A stretch of DNA of 33,467 bases from positions 1 to 33,467 of the IMG/VR virus record IMGVR_UViG_3300030106_005376, one strand, 5' to 3'. Below are positions 2 to 19,923 of this stretch, piece after piece. The notes beneath the pieces were generated by a model. That model ran no database searches. It had not been told where the DNA came from and was given only the letters and a program-made list of their open reading frames with translations. Position 1 is the first letter of the stretch, and every line of letters begins with the position of its first letter. Origin of the DNA: a virus. The translations under genes were made by a program, and so were the position numbers.

Positions 2-328
2 TCAGCCCAAAGACAAATAGTTGGTGGTAAGTTGAAAATAGATACAAGTTCTGTAATTCAGAATAATTATAAACTACAATTGTTAGAGATGTTATCCAAT
101 GATAGTAAATTAAATGACATCAGACAATTAATCGCTGATAATTCTATTTCAGATTATTCAGAGTTGTATAGATTATTGTATGATGAGGTTGATAATTATG
201 GTAATGGAAAACAAGCTGAGTGTATTATGAACATCGCAGAAGCTCAGTATCAAGATGTACATGTTGTAGATAAAGAGATTAACTTTATGTCACTAATAAT
301 AAGATTAACAAGGATATTAAAAAAATGA
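2..328 (+). CDS. 44: Clamp-loader large subunit, gp44-like (C-terminal part; 5' end outside window)
   Basis: The reading frame is open from base 2, so the gene starts before the window; an in-frame TTG at 32 is probably only an internal Leu codon. What remains is the helical C-terminal collar region of a T4 gp44-type AAA+ clamp loader. The last 40 residues, including IAEAQYQDVHVVDKEIN, resemble the C-terminus of marine T4-like gp44 proteins as I recall them. The Walker motifs would lie upstream and cannot be checked. The gp62-like partner lies 390 bp downstream, which supports the call. gp44 and gp62 together load the sliding clamp gp45 at replication forks. The stop overlaps the next ATG (ATGA). 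Confidence 0.72.
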   Translation, partial: SAQRQIVGGKLKIDTSSVIQNNYKLQLLEMLSNDSKLNDIRQLIADNSISDYSELYRLLYDEVDNYGNGKQAECIMNIAEAQYQDVHVVDKEINFMSLIIRLTRILKK

Positions 329-483
329 AACGATTCAGAGTAGAACATAATGATATGGAAAAGGGTATTTTGTATATTACATTACATCACCCACCATATG
401 AAGATGAGAACATCTTATCTAGAATAAAATGGGAACAAAAAGATGTTACGATAACAGAGGTATATCTAGGGGGAGAGGAATAA
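325..483 (+). CDS. Small hypothetical protein between clamp-loader genes
   Basis: A 52-residue ORF starting MKRFRVEHNDMEKGILYITL and ending in EVYLGGEE. Its ATG overlaps the gp44 stop (ATGA) and its TAA overlaps the ATG of the next gene (TAATG), so it is translationally coupled on both sides, which is the main evidence that it is real. It has no membrane segment or recognisable motif; the composition suggests a small mixed alpha/beta protein. I do not recognise the family. Its place inside the clamp-loader operon suggests a role linked to replication or simply co-expression. Confidence 0.6.
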   Translation: MKRFRVEHNDMEKGILYITLHHPPYEDENILSRIKWEQKDVTITEVYLGGEE

Positions 484-719
484 TGATGATACCAGGTAAA
501 AATGGACAAATGGAACAAACAATTGACTTTAGTAAAACAACTGAAATATGTTGTGAGGCATGTGGTGGTAAAACATTTAAACAAACACTTTTATTAAGAA
601 AGATGTCAGCATTAGTTGCACCAGGTGGACAAGAAACTATAATCCCAATGCAAGTATTCGCTTGTGAAAAATGTGGACATGTGAATAAAGAGTTCGCAGA
701 CGTGGATGGAATTCAGTAG
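483..719 (+). CDS. Small zinc-ribbon protein
   Basis: The start is taken at 483, where TAATG overlaps the upstream stop and a GGGAGAGG ribosome binding site lies just before; ATG at 486 is equally possible. The 78-residue product begins MMIPGKNGQMEQ and carries two CxxC knuckles, CEACGG near residues 21-26 and CEKCGH near residues 62-67, a typical zinc ribbon with a 35-40 residue insert. Zinc ribbons of this size bind DNA, RNA or protein partners. Its position between gp44 and gp62 suggests an accessory role in replication or late transcription, but that is inference only. Confidence 0.65.
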   Translation: MMIPGKNGQMEQTIDFSKTTEICCEACGGKTFKQTLLLRKMSALVAPGGQETIIPMQVFACEKCGHVNKEFADVDGIQ

Positions 720-1138
720 TGACAATATTCGATTGGATAAATCAAATACTTGTAAAGAAAACTCATTGGGATGAATTTACAGAAGATGAACAAAAGAGAT
801 TCAGCCCATTTATAATTAATCGTTGGTTGTCAATGGACAAAGACTTTCTTGAGATTGTAAATTTCTTTCAAAAGTATTCCATTGGAACATTAGAACCACG
901 AGAGGTTTACAAATGGTATTGTGATATGTTACCAAGAGGTAAGAGATTCAATAAATATATCAAAGGTAAAAAAGACAAGAAATACAATACTGAATTAATT
1001 GATATTATGGTTACACATTTTGAATGTAGTAAATCACAAGTAAAAGATTATTTGGATTTAATTGCTAAAAATGAGTTGATTGAAATATTAGAAAAGTATG
1101 GAATGAATGAAAAAACAATAAAGAGGTTATTAAAGTGA
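719..1138 (+). CDS. 62: Clamp-loader small subunit, gp62-like
   Basis: A 139-residue protein with a GTG start that shares a base with the preceding TAG. The segment LPRGKRFNKYIK at residues 71-82 matches the most conserved block of T4 gp62 (VPRGKRYGKW) and of cyanophage gp62 (RPRKRFAKW). The N-terminus FSPFIINRWLSM also fits marine gp62 homologues. gp62 is the single non-ATPase subunit that completes the gp44 tetramer into the clamp loader. It is shorter than T4 gp62 (187 residues), as in other marine relatives. The gp44-gp62 order is that of T4, except that two small genes sit between them. It overlaps the next gene by 4 bp. Confidence 0.82.
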   Translation: MTIFDWINQILVKKTHWDEFTEDEQKRFSPFIINRWLSMDKDFLEIVNFFQKYSIGTLEPREVYKWYCDMLPRGKRFNKYIKGKKDKKYNTELIDIMVTHFECSKSQVKDYLDLIAKNELIEILEKYGMNEKTIKRLLK

Positions 1139-1527
1139 AAATAAAAGAAAATGACTTGACGATAACTGAAACAGACTTGTCAGTTACAAAACATCCAATT
1201 GTTGAACAAATGGAAAAAGAATGGCCTGAAATGACTGGTGAGTTTAGAAGATTACAAAGGGAACAATATGAATTATTTTGTAGAAAACAACACGATTATG
1301 GTCCTGGTAATATTTCAGTTGGAACACAATTATCAACGGATGATGAAATTAAGTTATCATTAACTGGATTGTGGTTTAGAATGAATGATAAAATACAAAG
1401 ACTAAAAACTTTATTAATGGGGAATAAAGATACGGCTGTAGACGAACCATTAGAAGACGCATACTTAGATGTATCTAATTATGGTATTATGGCTACAATA
1501 GTTAAGAATGGAAAATGGGGAAAATAA
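1135..1527 (+). CDS. Nucleotide modification associated domain 1 (DUF1599/Nmad1) protein
   Basis: A 130-residue protein with a GTG start overlapping the gp62 stop and an AGAGG ribosome binding site. Diagnostic segments are KQHDYGPGNIS, LWFRMNDKIQRLKTL and EPLEDAYLDVSNYGIM, which match the all-alpha DUF1599/Nmad1 family related to MazG-like nucleotide pyrophosphatases. Family members are common in phages and are linked by genome context to base modification or dNTP pool control. The acidic and histidine positions expected of the family (HDYG, NDK, ED) are present, so the protein is probably active. A Mom-like DNA modification protein lies two genes downstream, which fits. Confidence 0.75.
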   Translation: MKIKENDLTITETDLSVTKHPIVEQMEKEWPEMTGEFRRLQREQYELFCRKQHDYGPGNISVGTQLSTDDEIKLSLTGLWFRMNDKIQRLKTLLMGNKDTAVDEPLEDAYLDVSNYGIMATIVKNGKWGK

Positions 1528-1528
1528 A

Positions 1529-1741
1529 ATGAATCAATTAATAAAAGCTGCGATAGATTATTATCAAGCACAAAGAACAGAGGCATTGGCTCACTTAGAT
1601 TTATTATTCAATGATGCTGTTCAAATAGGAGAACACTCAGATTTATTAACTGAGGTAAAGAAATGGACAGATAGTTTATCACAAGCTGAAGAAAATTTAG
1701 AAACATTAAAGAGAAACTTTGACTATAATCAATCCAAATAA
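1529..1741 (+). CDS. Small helical hypothetical protein
   Basis: I take the ATG at 1529, two bases after the upstream stop and preceded by GGGGAAAA, over an upstream in-frame start at 1508. The 70-residue product is almost entirely helix-forming, with heptad-like spacing in the second half (LLTEVKKWTDSLSQAEENLETLKR), so a coiled coil is likely. It has no catalytic motif. It overlaps the next gene by 23 bp. I do not recognise a function. Confidence 0.6.
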   Translation: MNQLIKAAIDYYQAQRTEALAHLDLLFNDAVQIGEHSDLLTEVKKWTDSLSQAEENLETLKRNFDYNQSK

Positions 1742-2477
1742 AATAACCATAAGAGAAATATCAAAGAAGATAGCTAAAGATATGATTGTAAAAAATCATT
1801 ACAGTCATAAGTGGACAAGTTGTAGATACGCTTTAGGTGTATTTTTTAAAACAGATAACGAACATCAGTTTTTTGATGAGAAAGATGAAAAGTTAGCTGG
1901 TGTAGCTATCTATGGTTATCCTGTTGGTAGGAGTGCTCCCAAATCTATTTCACCTGAATTAAAGGAAGAAGAAGTATTGGAGTTAACAAGGTTATTTATC
2001 TTTGATGATTATGGTAAGAATACAGAGAGTGTGGTTTTATCTAAAACATTCAATTGGTTAAAAATAAACGCTAGTGAAATAAAAGTATTGGTAAGTTATT
2101 CAGACCCGGAACAAGGGCACTTGGGTATTATTTATCAAGCTACTAATTGGATATATCAAGGAAATAATATTAGGTTGATGCCTAATTACGCTATACGACT
2201 TACAGAAGATGGTAAGTGGATGCACTCAAGAAATGTTACAACGAAGTTTGGTTCTCACAATCTTGAGAAATTGAAGAAGAAAATCGGACATACATTTTGG
2301 AGAAAAGAAGAACCTGAAAAACATAGATACTTATATCTGTTATGTGGAAAGAAAGATAAGAAAAAAATTATGAATACATTAATACATAAACCTAAACCAT
2401 ATCCAAAAGACGCTTATCAATTCTATCCAGAGATACAAAAGATTGAAGTAGAATCAAAGGAGAAATTTTATGGGTAG
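1719..2477 (+). CDS. Mom-like GNAT-family DNA modification protein
   Basis: A 252-residue protein. NHYSHKW at residues 26-32 and the block SYSDPEQGHLGIIYQATNW (near residue 130) are hallmarks of the Mu Mom-related acyltransferase-like family found in many phages. Mu Mom modifies adenine to N6-carbamoylmethyl-adenine and shields phage DNA from restriction. The chosen start is TTG at 1719 with an AGAGAAA-type upstream sequence, because the family's conserved N-terminal segment begins only a few residues later; the first ATG (residue 22) would cut into it. It stands next to an Nmad1 protein and close to the clamp loader, which suits a role on replicating phage DNA. Whether this protein makes the Mu base or another one is unknown. 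Confidence 0.72.
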   Translation: MTIINPNKITIREISKKIAKDMIVKNHYSHKWTSCRYALGVFFKTDNEHQFFDEKDEKLAGVAIYGYPVGRSAPKSISPELKEEEVLELTRLFIFDDYGKNTESVVLSKTFNWLKINASEIKVLVSYSDPEQGHLGIIYQATNWIYQGNNIRLMPNYAIRLTEDGKWMHSRNVTTKFGSHNLEKLKKKIGHTFWRKEEPEKHRYLYLLCGKKDKKKIMNTLIHKPKPYPKDAYQFYPEIQKIEVESKEKFYG

Positions 2478-3330
2478 AATATCTTATTCACAATTATCAA
2501 TGTTTTCAGAGTGTCCACAAAGGTGGAAACTAAATTACATAGATGATGTAACGGAAAGAGAACCAAGTATACATTTATTATTTGGAACAGCGATGCACGA
2601 AGTTATACAAACTTGGTTAGAAGTTATGTATCACGATAGTGTGAAAAATGCAAACAAATTAAATCTTGAACAAAGATTACATGATAAAATGATGGAGTTA
2701 TTTAAACATGACAAAGAAGTTTATGGTAAGAATCCTTGTACATTAGAAGAAATGAGAGAGTTTTTTCAAGATGGTGTAAATATATTAGATTTCTTAAAAA
2801 AAAGAAGAGCTGATTATTTTAACAAAAGAGGTTACAAACTTATAGGTTGTGAAGTTCCAATTGAAGTAGATTTAAAAAAGAATGTTAAAATAGTTGGTTA
2901 TTTAGATTTAGTTATATTAGATGAAAGAACTGATATAATAACAATTTACGACATAAAAACATCTACACAAGGTTGGAATAAATGGATGAAAAAAGATGAG
3001 AATAAAACTCAACAATTATTATTATATAAACAATTTTATTCTAATCAATACAATCATCCAATAGATAAAATAGAAGTGGAATACTTCATAGTGAAAAGAA
3101 AACTATGGGAAAATGCTATGTTTCCTCAAAAAAGAGTTCAAAAGTTTTCACCAGCGAGTGGGACTGTAAGTATGAACAAGGTTGCTAAACGACTAAACAC
3201 ATTCTTAGATTTAGCATTCAATGATGAGGGTGAAAGAATATCAGAAAACATTATACCAACACCAAGTAAGAAAGCTTGTAAATGGTGTGAATTTAATCAA
3301 ACAGAGTATTGTAGTGTGGGGGTAAGATGA
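2470..3330 (+). CDS. PD-(D/E)XK exonuclease with Fe-S cluster (Cas4/RecB-like)
   Basis: A 286-residue protein with an AAGGAG ribosome binding site. Catalytic features of the RecB/Cas4 nuclease fold are in order: H43 in FGTAMHEVIQ, D146 in GYLDLVI, D161 and K163 in YDIKTS, and the QLLLY motif at residues 182-186. C15 in SECPQRW plus C270, C273 and C281 near the C-terminus give the one-plus-three cysteine pattern of a 4Fe-4S cluster, as in Cas4 and AddB. Homologues are common in marine T4-like phages and are thought to act in recombination or DNA processing. No cas1/cas2 or CRISPR array is nearby, so a CRISPR adaptation role is not suggested. Confidence 0.85.
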   Translation: MGRISYSQLSMFSECPQRWKLNYIDDVTEREPSIHLLFGTAMHEVIQTWLEVMYHDSVKNANKLNLEQRLHDKMMELFKHDKEVYGKNPCTLEEMREFFQDGVNILDFLKKRRADYFNKRGYKLIGCEVPIEVDLKKNVKIVGYLDLVILDERTDIITIYDIKTSTQGWNKWMKKDENKTQQLLLYKQFYSNQYNHPIDKIEVEYFIVKRKLWENAMFPQKRVQKFSPASGTVSMNKVAKRLNTFLDLAFNDEGERISENIIPTPSKKACKWCEFNQTEYCSVGVR

Positions 3331-3665
3331 AAATAAGATTAGATAAAACTGATAGTAAAGTTATAAAATCAAACAAAACATATGATGTTATAGATAATAC
3401 AAATTTAAATAATTTAGTTGTGTCAAAAACCATATTACACGCAGGAAAAAAAACTGGTGGACATAATCATAGCGGGCAAGAAGAGGTTTATATCTTTATG
3501 AAGGGTGAAGGTACAATGATTGTAGGGACTAATACATTTGAAGTAAAGGCTGGTGACACAATTTTAATACCAGATGGTGATTTTCATCAAGTGCATAACA
3601 CAGGTTTTTATGCTGAAGATGATTTAGAATTCATATGTGTTTTTGATGGGGGAAGAAATCACTAA
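3327..3665 (+). CDS. Cupin-domain protein
   Basis: A 112-residue single-domain cupin. Motif 1 is GGHNHSGQEEVYIFMKGEG and motif 2 is AGDTILIPDGDFHQVHNTG, giving the usual two-His/Glu plus His metal set. Small cupins of this type include sugar-phosphate isomerases, epimerases and binding proteins; the substrate cannot be told from sequence. It overlaps the upstream gene by ATGA and the downstream gene by TAATG. It lies in the replication-side operon rather than the sugar cluster, but only 1 kb from it. Confidence 0.78.
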   Translation: MKIRLDKTDSKVIKSNKTYDVIDNTNLNNLVVSKTILHAGKKTGGHNHSGQEEVYIFMKGEGTMIVGTNTFEVKAGDTILIPDGDFHQVHNTGFYAEDDLEFICVFDGGRNH

Positions 3666-14100: not shown

Positions 14101-15038
14101 GGGTATTAGTCACTGGAGCTAGTGGTTTAATTGGTTCTAATTTAGTTGAGTCTTTACAAAAAGATGGACATGATGTTAGGGGCACTTATAGAACAAATAT
14201 AGAAAATATATCTGATGGAGTTGAATGGATAAAGGGTGATTTGTTAGATTTTAATTTTTGTAGAGAGATTACAAAGGATATTGACATTGTTTTTCATTGT
14301 GCAGCTAATACATCAGGTGCACATGTAATGTCTTCCACACCATTAGTACATGTCACACCAAACATAGTAATGAACTCACAATTAATGGAAGCCTCTTATG
14401 AAGCAAAAGTAAAAAAGTTTATATTTATGAGTAGTAGTGTAGTATATCCGTACACAGCTGAAAAACCTAATCACGAAGATGAATTTATTTTTGGTGATAT
14501 ATATGAAAAGTATTTTGCAGTGGGTTGGATGAAAAGATATACGGAAAAATTATGTGAAATGTACTCGAAAGTTTTAAGTCCATCAATGCAATGTATTGTT
14601 TTGAGACCAGCTAATATATATGGTGCGAATGATAAGTTTGACGATAGGTCACATGTCTTACCAGCTACAATTATGAAAGTTGTTAATAAACAAAATCCAA
14701 TTGAAGTTTGGGGCGATGGTAAAGATATAAGAGACTTCATACATATAGATGATTTTGTAAGAGCTTGTATGATTGTAATGAACAAAGTTGATAGTTACGA
14801 TATTTTTAACATTGGCTCTGGTGTAGGGAAGTCTGTTGATGACATCTTGTTTACTTGTATGGAACTTGAGGGATATGACACAGATGTTACTTATAATTCT
14901 GATAAACCATCTATGATTCCAATTAGACTTTTAGATGTTTCAAAGGCTAAAGATAAACTTGGGTTTGAAACTGAAATATCCCTAAAGGAGGGATTGGAAA
15001 AAACAATTAAATGGTATAAAGAAAATTATGACAAATAA
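14097..15038 (+). CDS. Extended SDR NDP-sugar epimerase/dehydratase-like protein (atypical active site)
   Basis: A 313-residue protein with GAGGAG just upstream. TGASGLIGSNLVESL binds NAD(P). VFHCAANTSG, FMSSSVVYP and VLRPANIYGANDKF are typical of extended SDRs, as is the WGDGKDIRDFIHIDDFVRA block. In AVGWMKRY the Lys is K146 but the residue four before it is Val142, not Tyr, as in the paralogue at 12435. The two proteins also share the C-terminal LKEGxEKTIxWY. It is followed directly by another Fe(II)/2OG oxygenase gene with an 11 bp overlap. Confidence 0.76.
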   Translation: MRVLVTGASGLIGSNLVESLQKDGHDVRGTYRTNIENISDGVEWIKGDLLDFNFCREITKDIDIVFHCAANTSGAHVMSSTPLVHVTPNIVMNSQLMEASYEAKVKKFIFMSSSVVYPYTAEKPNHEDEFIFGDIYEKYFAVGWMKRYTEKLCEMYSKVLSPSMQCIVLRPANIYGANDKFDDRSHVLPATIMKVVNKQNPIEVWGDGKDIRDFIHIDDFVRACMIVMNKVDSYDIFNIGSGVGKSVDDILFTCMELEGYDTDVTYNSDKPSMIPIRLLDVSKAKDKLGFETEISLKEGLEKTIKWYKENYDK

Positions 15039-15630
15039 TATTTTAGAATATAATGAAAATGGTTTTTTTACGATTAAAAACTTTTTTACTAAAGAACAAA
15101 TGGATTTAGTTAAAAAAGATTTGATGGACATAGCGGATGATAAATATTCTGATATGATTCATCCACATAAAAAGTCAAAAGAAACTAAGAAACTCATTTT
15201 TGATAAAAAACTTAATAAAATTGTAAGACAGATTTTTGATTGTGACTATGACGCTGTCCAAAGTCAATTAAGATATAAACAACCTGGTTCAGATGGTTTT
15301 CCGTTACATCAAGATGATTTTTGGACAAGAGCTGGTTTTGGTAACACTTTAAATGTTTTAGTACATGTGGATGATACCAACGAAGAAAATGGATGTATTT
15401 ATGCATATCCTAAAAGTCACAAACCACCATTTTATAGTGAGAAAGTAAACTTAGAGGCTAAAAGTGGCGACATAACATTTTTACATAATTTTATATTACA
15501 TGGAAGTGATATGAATAAAAGTGATAAATTTAGAACAAATTTATTACTTATGTATGTTAAAAAAAATGTTAAATATAGAGTTGGGGAATCCGCAAAAAGA
15601 AAAAAAATTAATTTGGATGTTTCCATTTAA
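15028..15630 (+). CDS. Phytanoyl-CoA dioxygenase (PhyH)-like Fe(II)/2OG oxygenase
   Basis: A 200-residue protein. It starts NILEYNENGFFTIKNFFTKE, the classic opening of PhyH-family proteins. FPLHQDDFW gives H94 and D96, FLHNFILHGSDMN gives H158, and R169 in FRTNLLLMYV would bind 2-oxoglutarate. The GCIYAYPKSHK segment precedes the distal histidine as expected. It is shorter than most PhyH proteins (250-300). Relatives hydroxylate lipids, amino acids and natural-product sugars. Its position after an SDR repeats the arrangement seen at 12435-14100. A promoter-like gap follows. Confidence 0.78.
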   Translation: MTNNILEYNENGFFTIKNFFTKEQMDLVKKDLMDIADDKYSDMIHPHKKSKETKKLIFDKKLNKIVRQIFDCDYDAVQSQLRYKQPGSDGFPLHQDDFWTRAGFGNTLNVLVHVDDTNEENGCIYAYPKSHKPPFYSEKVNLEAKSGDITFLHNFILHGSDMNKSDKFRTNLLLMYVKKNVKYRVGESAKRKKINLDVSI

Positions 15631-17531: not shown

Positions 17532-18185
17532 GAATTAGTTATAATGGACGAACCAATTTGTCCTGTAAATGAAATGAAAATAACTTGGCAAAGATATTAT
17601 GTATTAGACATATTAGAAAACAGTGGTATAGATTATAACCAAGTGCTTATGGTGGACGCTGATACGATAATACACCCAGACACACCAAATTTTTTTGAAA
17701 TGACTGATGGTAAGTTTACAGCTGTTCATAATGAAGGTTGTTATGATTGGATATGTCGAAGTATTGAAAATTACCATAAACATTTATTTTCTGATATAGA
17801 AATACCATTTGGTTTAAATGAATACATAAATACAGGTTTTTTAATTTTTAATAAATCACATAAACAATTTATAAATAAATTTTTAGAATTTTACAATAAA
17901 AACGCTGACAAAATAAATCAAATACAAGAAACTTTTAAAGTAGGGACTTGTCAATCAGTAATTCAATACTTATTAAAAATTGAAAATGTTGATTTAAATC
18001 TTTTACCATATGAATATAATATGTGTGATTTACCAAGAAAAGAAATATTAGATGAACAATTAACCATGACAAAAGTGGGTTGGATTTATCATTACAATGC
18101 TATTCCAAATAATCACGACGCTAGTTTGACAATGTATTGGATGAAAAAAACCTATGAACATTTATATGGGAACTTAAGTGATTAA
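17415..18185 (+). CDS. Putative GT-A glycosyltransferase, tandem copy 2
   Basis: A 256-residue protein; ATG at 17415 is preceded by GGAGG and lies 8 bp inside copy 1. VLMVDADTIIHPDTPNFFEM gives the D81-A-D83 metal motif followed by the acidic/PNFF stretch seen in copy 1. EYINTGFLIFNKSHKQF and VGTCQSVIQYLL are the later acceptor-side blocks, with a Q where many GT8-like enzymes have DQ. It ends in WIYHYNAIP. The complete DxD suggests that this is the active member of the pair. Confidence 0.68.
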   Translation: MDKNIVFIPWIKDESRATRSLPYKYSISSWKQWCKKNDCELVIMDEPICPVNEMKITWQRYYVLDILENSGIDYNQVLMVDADTIIHPDTPNFFEMTDGKFTAVHNEGCYDWICRSIENYHKHLFSDIEIPFGLNEYINTGFLIFNKSHKQFINKFLEFYNKNADKINQIQETFKVGTCQSVIQYLLKIENVDLNLLPYEYNMCDLPRKEILDEQLTMTKVGWIYHYNAIPNNHDASLTMYWMKKTYEHLYGNLSD

Positions 18186-19923
18186 AATTGGATTAATAGG
18201 TAATGGTAAATGGGGAAAGATACTTCATAAAAATCTTAAAAATAATTATGACGTAAAGTTTGTTTGTAATAGTAAAGATAATTATGAATCTAAACTAAAG
18301 GATGTAGATTGGGTTGTTGTCGCAACACCAGATGACACACATTTTAAAATAGTTAGAAATTGTATATTAGCTAGGAAAAATGTATTTTGTGAAAAACCAT
18401 TAACACCAACTTACCAACAATCTAAGATTTTATTTAGATTCGCAGAAATGTACAATGTTAAACTATACGTAAATGACATACAAAATTATAGACAATACGA
18501 TTATACTTTAATGGAGAATAATTTAATAGAGCGAAGAAAAGGTGGAGGTGGTAGTGTAAGAAATATATTATATAGATTAACTTATCACGATATATATACT
18601 ATATACAAACATATAAAATACTCTCAGATAGACTCTATAATACCAATAGATTTAAAAAATAAATTACATTTTAAAATAAATTTTAACGATATAAATATTG
18701 AGTTTTTGTATGATATAAATGCTGATAATAAAGAACATCATATAAACGGAAATAGTTTAATATCGAGTGATAATATATTACCTATAATGTTCAATAAGGT
18801 TTTTAATCAAGACGTTGATTTTAAACACAATAAAGAAATTAGTTTATACACTAATAAACTTTTAGACGAAATAAACAAAAAATTATTTAAAAAAATAGCA
18901 GTAGTGGGGGGTGGTATATTTGGTTGCACTACAGCTTGGAAGTTTGCAAAAAATGGTTATGATGTAACTCTATTTGAAAAAAATAACGATATAATTACTC
19001 AGGCTTCAAATATTAATCAGTATAGATTACATAGAGGTTATCATTATCCAAGAAGCACAGAAACAGCTATACAATCACAATGGGGTGAAAAGAGTTTTAT
19101 AAAGGAGTATGGTGATTCGATTGTAAACGGAGACATTGAGCATTATTATTGTATAGCTAAAGAGGATAGTTTAGTTTCAGCAGAAGAATATAAAGATTTT
19201 TTAAATAACATTAATTTAAGTTATGAGGAAAAAAAGCTTGACTTTATATACAAAAATGTTGTAGATTTAACTGTAAAAGTAAATGAATATTTATTTGACC
19301 CTAATAAATTAAAACAAATTTGTTGGGACAAATTAGAAAAATATAAAGTAAATGTTAGACTAAATCAAAATGACTTTAAATCTGAATCATTTGATTATGT
19401 GGTAAACGCCACATATTCTAATTTGAACAAATTTTTACCAACAAAGTTACAGAGGGATTATCAATTTGAACTATGTGAGAAACCAGTTATTAAGTTACCT
19501 GAACAATATAAAAACAAGAGTGTTGTTATAATGGATGGTCCTTTTATGTGTATAGACCCATTAGGAGACTCAGGTTTACATGTTATGGGTAATGTTGTTC
19601 ACGCTATCCATAATACTAATGTTGGTAAGTTTCCAGAATATGATGAAAAGTTTGATAAGTTATTAAATAAAGGTATAGTTGAAAATCCTTCGATAACTAA
19701 CATTGATAAATTTATAGAATCAGCAAAAACTTTTTTTGTAGATATTGATAAAGCAAAACATATTGGTTCAATGTTTACATTTAGAACTGTATTACCAAAC
19801 AGAGATAACGATGACGCTAGGCCAACTTTAGTTGAAAATGTTACTGATAAAATATTCAATGTATTTTCAGGTAAAATAGGTACATGTGTTTCATCAGCAG
19901 AAAAATTAATGGAGTGCGTTTAA
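18178..19923 (+). CDS. Fusion: Gfo/Idh/MocA oxidoreductase N-terminus + FAD-dependent DAO-type oxidoreductase
   Basis: A 581-residue protein with a GTG start inside the end of the previous gene. Residues 1-120 are a Gfo/Idh/MocA Rossmann domain: IGLIGNGKWGKILHKNL, VVVATPDDTHF and the E72-K73-P74 motif in VFCEKPLTP. The rest of the MocA substrate domain is reduced (about residues 120-235). From residue 240 a second Rossmann domain begins, IAVVGGGIFGCTTAWKFAKN (G244-G249), followed by RLHRGYHYPRS, typical of DAO-family FAD enzymes; YVVNATYSNL lies near residue 410. It ends in FSGKIGTCVSSAEKLM. Each half normally occurs as a separate enzyme. Together they could carry out paired sugar redox steps, but the substrate is unknown. 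Confidence 0.72.
   Translation: MIKIGLIGNGKWGKILHKNLKNNYDVKFVCNSKDNYESKLKDVDWVVVATPDDTHFKIVRNCILARKNVFCEKPLTPTYQQSKILFRFAEMYNVKLYVNDIQNYRQYDYTLMENNLIERRKGGGGSVRNILYRLTYHDIYTIYKHIKYSQIDSIIPIDLKNKLHFKINFNDINIEFLYDINADNKEHHINGNSLISSDNILPIMFNKVFNQDVDFKHNKEISLYTNKLLDEINKKLFKKIAVVGGGIFGCTTAWKFAKNGYDVTLFEKNNDIITQASNINQYRLHRGYHYPRSTETAIQSQWGEKSFIKEYGDSIVNGDIEHYYCIAKEDSLVSAEEYKDFLNNINLSYEEKKLDFIYKNVVDLTVKVNEYLFDPNKLKQICWDKLEKYKVNVRLNQNDFKSESFDYVVNATYSNLNKFLPTKLQRDYQFELCEKPVIKLPEQYKNKSVVIMDGPFMCIDPLGDSGLHVMGNVVHAIHNTNVGKFPEYDEKFDKLLNKGIVENPSITNIDKFIESAKTFFVDIDKAKHIGSMFTFRTVLPNRDNDDARPTLVENVTDKIFNVFSGKIGTCVSSAEKLMECV

Follow-up and report, generated by a model that had tools for sequence, protein, structure and literature searches.

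An uncultivated phage carries in its DNA-replication operon a gene for a genuine, full-length relative of the Mom protein of phage Mu, and this gene sits there as a swappable cassette. Mu Mom modifies adenines in phage DNA, and host restriction enzymes are thereby blocked. The DNA analysed here, referred to as the window, is taken from a virus fragment of 36,038 bases and covers bases 1 to 33,467 of it. A near-identity search of the window against isolate phages gave no match. Its closest isolate proteins are those of Flavobacterium phage immuto, Microcystis phage Mel-JY01 and Polaribacter phage P12002L, and Bacteroidota account for many of the cellular contigs in which Mom occurs; the host is likely a member of the Bacteroidota, and the phage itself is probably marine. 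Mostly marine phages that probably infect Bacteroidota are thus seen to have a Mu-type DNA hypermodification enzyme in their replication operon.

Organisation of the replication operon

The window begins inside a clamp-loader gene, and from there a compact operon runs along the plus strand (Table 1). From gp62 through to the gene for a SLOG-fold protein at 3665, adjacent reading frames share between 1 and 23 bases; the Nmad1 frame overlaps that of gp62, and the overlap between the frames for Mom and the PD-(D/E)XK nuclease amounts to 8 bases. The nuclease gene is followed by genes for a cupin and the SLOG-fold protein and by a small gene, and the operon as a whole by approximately 25 kb given over mainly to sugar-nucleotide and glycosyltransferase genes. 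A scan for promoters and terminators revealed nothing clear above shuffles. The earlier note had rightly set Nmad1 next to gp62; it had also described the Nmad1 and Mom genes as two genes apart, and this has to be amended, only one gene (1508-1741) lying between them.

Table 1. Features of the replication operon in the window
Feature	Position	Strand	Supporting match
gp44-like clamp-loader large subunit, C-terminal part, truncated by record start	2..328	+	phrog_168 clamp loader, E 4.7e-10
Small zinc-ribbon protein, between gp44 and gp62	429..719	+	weak Pfam zinc-ribbon match
gp62, clamp-loader small subunit	719..1138	+	PF16790, E 5.8e-9; phrog_225 clamp loader, E 3e-20
Nmad1 (DUF1599), 130 aa	1135..1527	+	PF07659, 34.2 bits (cut-off 25)
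77-aa protein, phrog_1811	1508..1741	+	PHROG, E 9e-11
Mom-family protein, 252 aa, TTG start, overlaps the 1508-1741 gene	1719..2477	+	PF25680, 176.7 bits
Exchangeable cassette; locus L072 has a putative DNA methylase gene instead	1722..2470	+	
PD-(D/E)XK nuclease, core gene 3' of the slot	2470..3330	+	PF12705, E 3.5e-23

Identity of the Mom protein

The Mom reading frame matches PF25680 (cut-off 27.1 bits) over profile positions 2-202 of 202, with E 6e-52, and PHROG 1384, annotated 'Mom-like', with E 2e-53. As for Nmad1, the profile match lies above its cut-off with a score that excludes chance, so both of the genes proposed in the earlier note are real and their coordinates are right; the motifs NHYSHKW and SYSDPEQGH are likewise found in the Mom protein. 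The sole solved structure matched by its sequence is that of Mu Mom (8bv8, whose record title reads 'inactive mutant S124A'), and BLASTP comparison of the two proteins gave 25% identity with E 1e-20. An AF2 model of the window protein (pLDDT 87.8) matched the crystal structure of Mu Mom S124A (8bv8_A) with Z 21.3 (3.8 Å, 178 residues), the runners-up being ordinary GNAT acetyltransferases with Z of at most 11.9, and Foldseek comparison of the model with the Mu Mom structure gave E 6e-14. The two proteins have in common the GNAT fold, the invariant motifs HYS, ELxR, NxES (containing S124) and SxxD (containing D149), and a similar length; they differ in that only 26% of their residues are identical, and in the location of the window gene within a replication operon.

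Across the window protein, Mu Mom, the Mom of the Polaribacter phage and those of six uncultivated phages, 21 positions are identical, including H58, Y59, E108, R111, S124 and D149 of Mu (the active-site positions S124, mutated in the inactive Mu protein, and D149 corresponding to S104 and D129 in the window protein); such conservation indicates family membership, not activity. The median dN/dS of Mom, over 23 relatives, is 0.056, compared with 0.100 for gp62 and 0.099 for the nuclease: the gene is intact and maintained, under strong purifying selection. Its identity is therefore secure, and it represents a new member of an already known family.

In Mu, com and mom form a separate unit at the end of the genome, whereas no Com-type partner is evident beside the window gene. 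The gene that overlaps Mom on its upstream side (1508-1741) belongs to phrog_1811 and has no zinc finger, so no Com-type zinc-finger translational activator overlapping mom was encountered. The zinc-ribbon gene at 429-719 was considered as a Com analogue and rejected, being a core gene that is conserved in loci with and without Mom.

The nearest relative from an isolate is the Mom-like protein of Polaribacter phage P12002L, with 54% identity over 88%; in that 48.7 kb genome, which lacks Nmad1, the gene instead lies beside a DNA methyltransferase. Large phages are also the setting of the Mom-REase fusions of jumbo phages, for which a division of roles into protection and attack has been proposed (PMC7824862). 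These share with the window a Mom-family enzyme in a large phage, but in the window Mom and nuclease are separate reading frames, and the nuclease is a core gene that is present without Mom.

An exchangeable slot in the operon

Locus L072 is the key comparison. Its DNA is 85.7% identical to that of the window over positions 194-1722 and 86.8% identical from position 2470, the start codon of the nuclease, with no DNA identity between 1722 and 2470. In Mom's place L072 encodes a 392-residue PF01555-like protein with a TSPPY motif, which matches PF01555 with E 1.1e-5 and a PHROG DNA methyltransferase with E 2e-7. Because its Pfam score (26.0 bits) falls just below the cut-off of 26.7, this protein is only a probable DNA methylase. 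With approximately 86% identity on both flanks and a putative methylase gene in the Mom position, L072 nevertheless establishes that the slot is exchangeable. The same order of HolB ATPase, small gene, clamp loader A, Nmad1 (51% identical), slot and PD-(D/E)XK nuclease is found in Mel-JY01, whose slot is occupied by genes for a SAM synthetase and an unmistakable C5 DNA methylase, and whose genome lacks Mom. Since genes of other kinds, encoding Clp protease and RimK-like ATP-grasp proteins, also occupy it, the slot is a general variable spot. That Mom and a putative DNA methylase naturally replace each other at one spot is evidence for an anti-restriction role, obtained without a cultured phage.

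Mom or its relatives were found at at least three positions around the operon, namely after Nmad1, in the gap between gp62 and Nmad1, and 5' of gp44; the type in the gp62/Nmad1 gap is shorter and about 33% identical. In many relatives without Mom (loci L073-L132), the interval from Nmad1 or gp62 to the nuclease is occupied by a Clp-protease-like gene. A gene for a RimK-like ATP-grasp ligase is located 3' of Mom in the slot in L009, L010, L011, L013-L017 and L027, and in L009 and L013 it is followed by a SAM synthetase gene. Further processing of the modification is a possible role for the ligase and the synthetase.

Nmad1 belongs to the operon core

The match of Nmad1 to PF07659 covers profile positions 16-59 of 61, and the same family was matched by all 33 of the 33 aligned relatives. 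In 80 contigs gathered by Nmad1 similarity the order gp44, zinc-ribbon gene, gp62, Nmad1, PD-(D/E)XK nuclease, SLOG recurs. Mom is present between gp62 and the nuclease in 24 of the 65 complete Nmad1-anchored intervals and absent from 41, where absence may mean a location elsewhere in the genome, all close relatives being uncultivated contigs. Whole-record searches of 50 records found both genes in 19, Mom alone in 16, Nmad1 alone in 14 and neither in one, counts that show separability and not true frequency, the records being in many cases fragments and having been selected for their resemblance to the two query genes. Complete isolate genomes show the same separation: Mel-JY01 has Nmad1 without Mom, and P12002L has Mom without Nmad1. 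In addition, Nmad1 can be only 48-65% identical in loci where Mom is 94-95% identical (L010, L011, L015, L017, L025), and from this discordance it follows that the two genes also recombine independently.

Nmad1 thus belongs to the core of the gp44-gp62-Nmad1-PD-(D/E)XK operon, with or without Mom, and its neighbourhood, searched for Mom and a small number of other modification families, is tied to the clamp loader and not to Mom. An Nmad1-like gene lies just 3' of DNA polymerase I in crAss phage cr112_1, and a streptococcal phage has a distant Nmad1 relative close to a primase/polymerase gene (PMC10221047). Since even distant relatives occur in replication modules, the context of Nmad1 points to replication more than to Mom. 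Nmad1 was also weighed as a possible MazG-like protein of the all-alpha NTP pyrophosphatases: its model is all-helical (pLDDT 71), and its matches to 2p06 (Z 7.5) and to iMazG 2q73 (Z 6.0) stand amid unrelated helical ones; nothing in the fold search reached E ≤ 0.001, no MazG-type family of Pfam was matched even at E 10, and an hhalign comparison of Nmad1 with one phage pyrophosphohydrolase was negative.

The downstream sugar cluster

The cluster encodes GT4- and GT2-type transferases, epimerases, enzymes of dTDP- and UDP-sugar metabolism, an aminotransferase and TPP enzymes, an inventory typical of surface or protein glycans. A comparable cluster lies directly 3' of the same nuclease gene in phage immuto, which has neither Mom nor Nmad1. 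Among the 50 records, many of them fragments, so that this is not proof, no Mom-bearing relative had a member of the thymidylate-synthase/hydroxymethylase family; a thymidylate-synthase-like hydroxymethylase was seen in two of the 50, as immuto itself and as a weak match in one Mom-less record. A search for Tet/JBP oxygenases was uninformative, giving no matches even among the controls. The tentative suggestion in the earlier note that transferases of the cluster glycosylate bases is accordingly not supported, nor is sugar on the phage DNA, within the limits that fragmentary records set on excluding it. The glycan cluster also contains a gene that seems to join a GFO/IDH/MocA-type oxidoreductase to a DAO-type FAD oxidoreductase (18178-19923) and a PhyH-family dioxygenase (15028-15630).

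Proposed role of Mom and alternatives

To the family membership, fold, conserved active-site positions, purifying selection and slot exchange described above, we add a chemistry and protective role for Mom, co-expression with the replisome and a function for Nmad1, all of which we infer, and the resulting account seems to us highly probable. Mom, with its GNAT acyltransferase fold, would place the Mom group (methylcarbamoyl/carbamoylmethyl) on the N6 position of adenines at particular sites in phage DNA that has been replicated, and host restriction enzymes would then be unable to cut. As their reading frames overlap, Mom would be produced together with the replisome, unlike the late, tightly controlled Mom of Mu. 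The gene is cargo in the variable slot of an operon gp44-Zn-gp62-Nmad1-[slot]-PD-(D/E)XK, of which Nmad1 is a standing member, present independently of Mom and more likely to serve general replication or nucleotide metabolism. At only 26% identity to Mu Mom, the window enzyme may differ in the group transferred or in site specificity. The expectation in the earlier note that this phage carries modified bases is retained in part: a genuine Mom enzyme makes modified adenines probable, while the partnership with Nmad1 and the glycosylation are not supported.

That partnership, in which Nmad1 and Mom act in one base-modification pathway and the cluster glycosyltransferases add sugars to the bases, is suggested by the closeness of the two genes and by the name of the Nmad1 family, which records a proposed link to base modification. 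It is unlikely, given that the genes separate in both directions even in complete genomes, that their alleles are discordant, that an Nmad1-like gene adjoins a polymerase gene in cr112_1, and that immuto keeps its sugar cluster after the same nuclease with neither gene. Proximity to Mom is no evidence for a common pathway, and a tempting inference is thereby corrected. The GNAT superfamily acts on a wide range of substrates, and varied GNAT matches did appear in the structure search, so that the window protein might act on protein, RNA or a small molecule, or be inactive. This too is improbable in view of the gap between its Z scores to Mu Mom and to other GNATs, the conservation of Mom-specific positions, the strong purifying selection and its replacement in the slot by putative DNA methylases, which of all the indirect evidence speaks most strongly for a role of Mom in DNA modification. 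Equally improbable is an arrangement akin to restriction-modification, in which Mom shields the phage DNA while the nuclease attacks that of the host or of rivals. The overlap of the two genes would fit such a pair, but the nuclease is kept in both relatives and isolates that lack Mom, by PHROG comparison it resembles a replication/recombination exonuclease, and it is not fused to Mom here.

Multiple Mom genes in relatives

Going beyond the earlier note, relatives of the window often carry two or three divergent Mom genes, and one carries four in tandem. Mom scored above the cut-off in 35 of the 50 whole records, and 21 of these 35 had at least two copies, a count that includes a marginal second copy in G027 (28.6 bits) and a copy in G013 containing a stop. 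The two or three paralogues of a phage lie at different genome positions (for example in G003, G008, G012, G031 and G040). With window Mom as the tblastn query, a less sensitive test, isolates gave one place per record in 323 records. The four full-length genes of L052 (1816-2448, 2620-3300, 3476-4186 and 4164-4904) each score 128-162 bits against PF25680, are 30-39% identical to one another and fall on separate tree branches, all four keeping the serine equivalent to S124. L143 and L045 each contain a subset of this array in the form of a pair; L045 stems from a different metagenome, so an assembly artefact is less likely. No description of such stacks was found in the literature, coverage of which was thin for subscription journals.

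The divergent stacks suggest that the specificity of Mom varies from paralogue to paralogue. Tentatively, this mostly marine phage group may use Mom proteins combinatorially: divergent paralogues, up to four in tandem, would each mark different sequence contexts or add a different group, and would trade places, as cassettes, with DNA methylases at set positions around the clamp-loader operon. If so, the stacking of hypermodifications would help these phages to stay ahead of diverse restriction systems in their hosts.

In L052 a gene for an HNH endonuclease (1317-1829) precedes the array. One Mom branch (L052:4164-4904, L043, L051 and L054) has serine at the position of Mu D149 and keeps S124, and its chemistry is possibly altered. 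In L130 and L115 a short Mom gene is followed by a DruA-like gene (L130:4309-4926 and L115:1490-2086) whose match to PF14236 is just below the cut-off; the PHROG profile of Mom is matched by this gene as well (E 2e-7 in L130), hinting that DruA of Druantia and Mom may be related.
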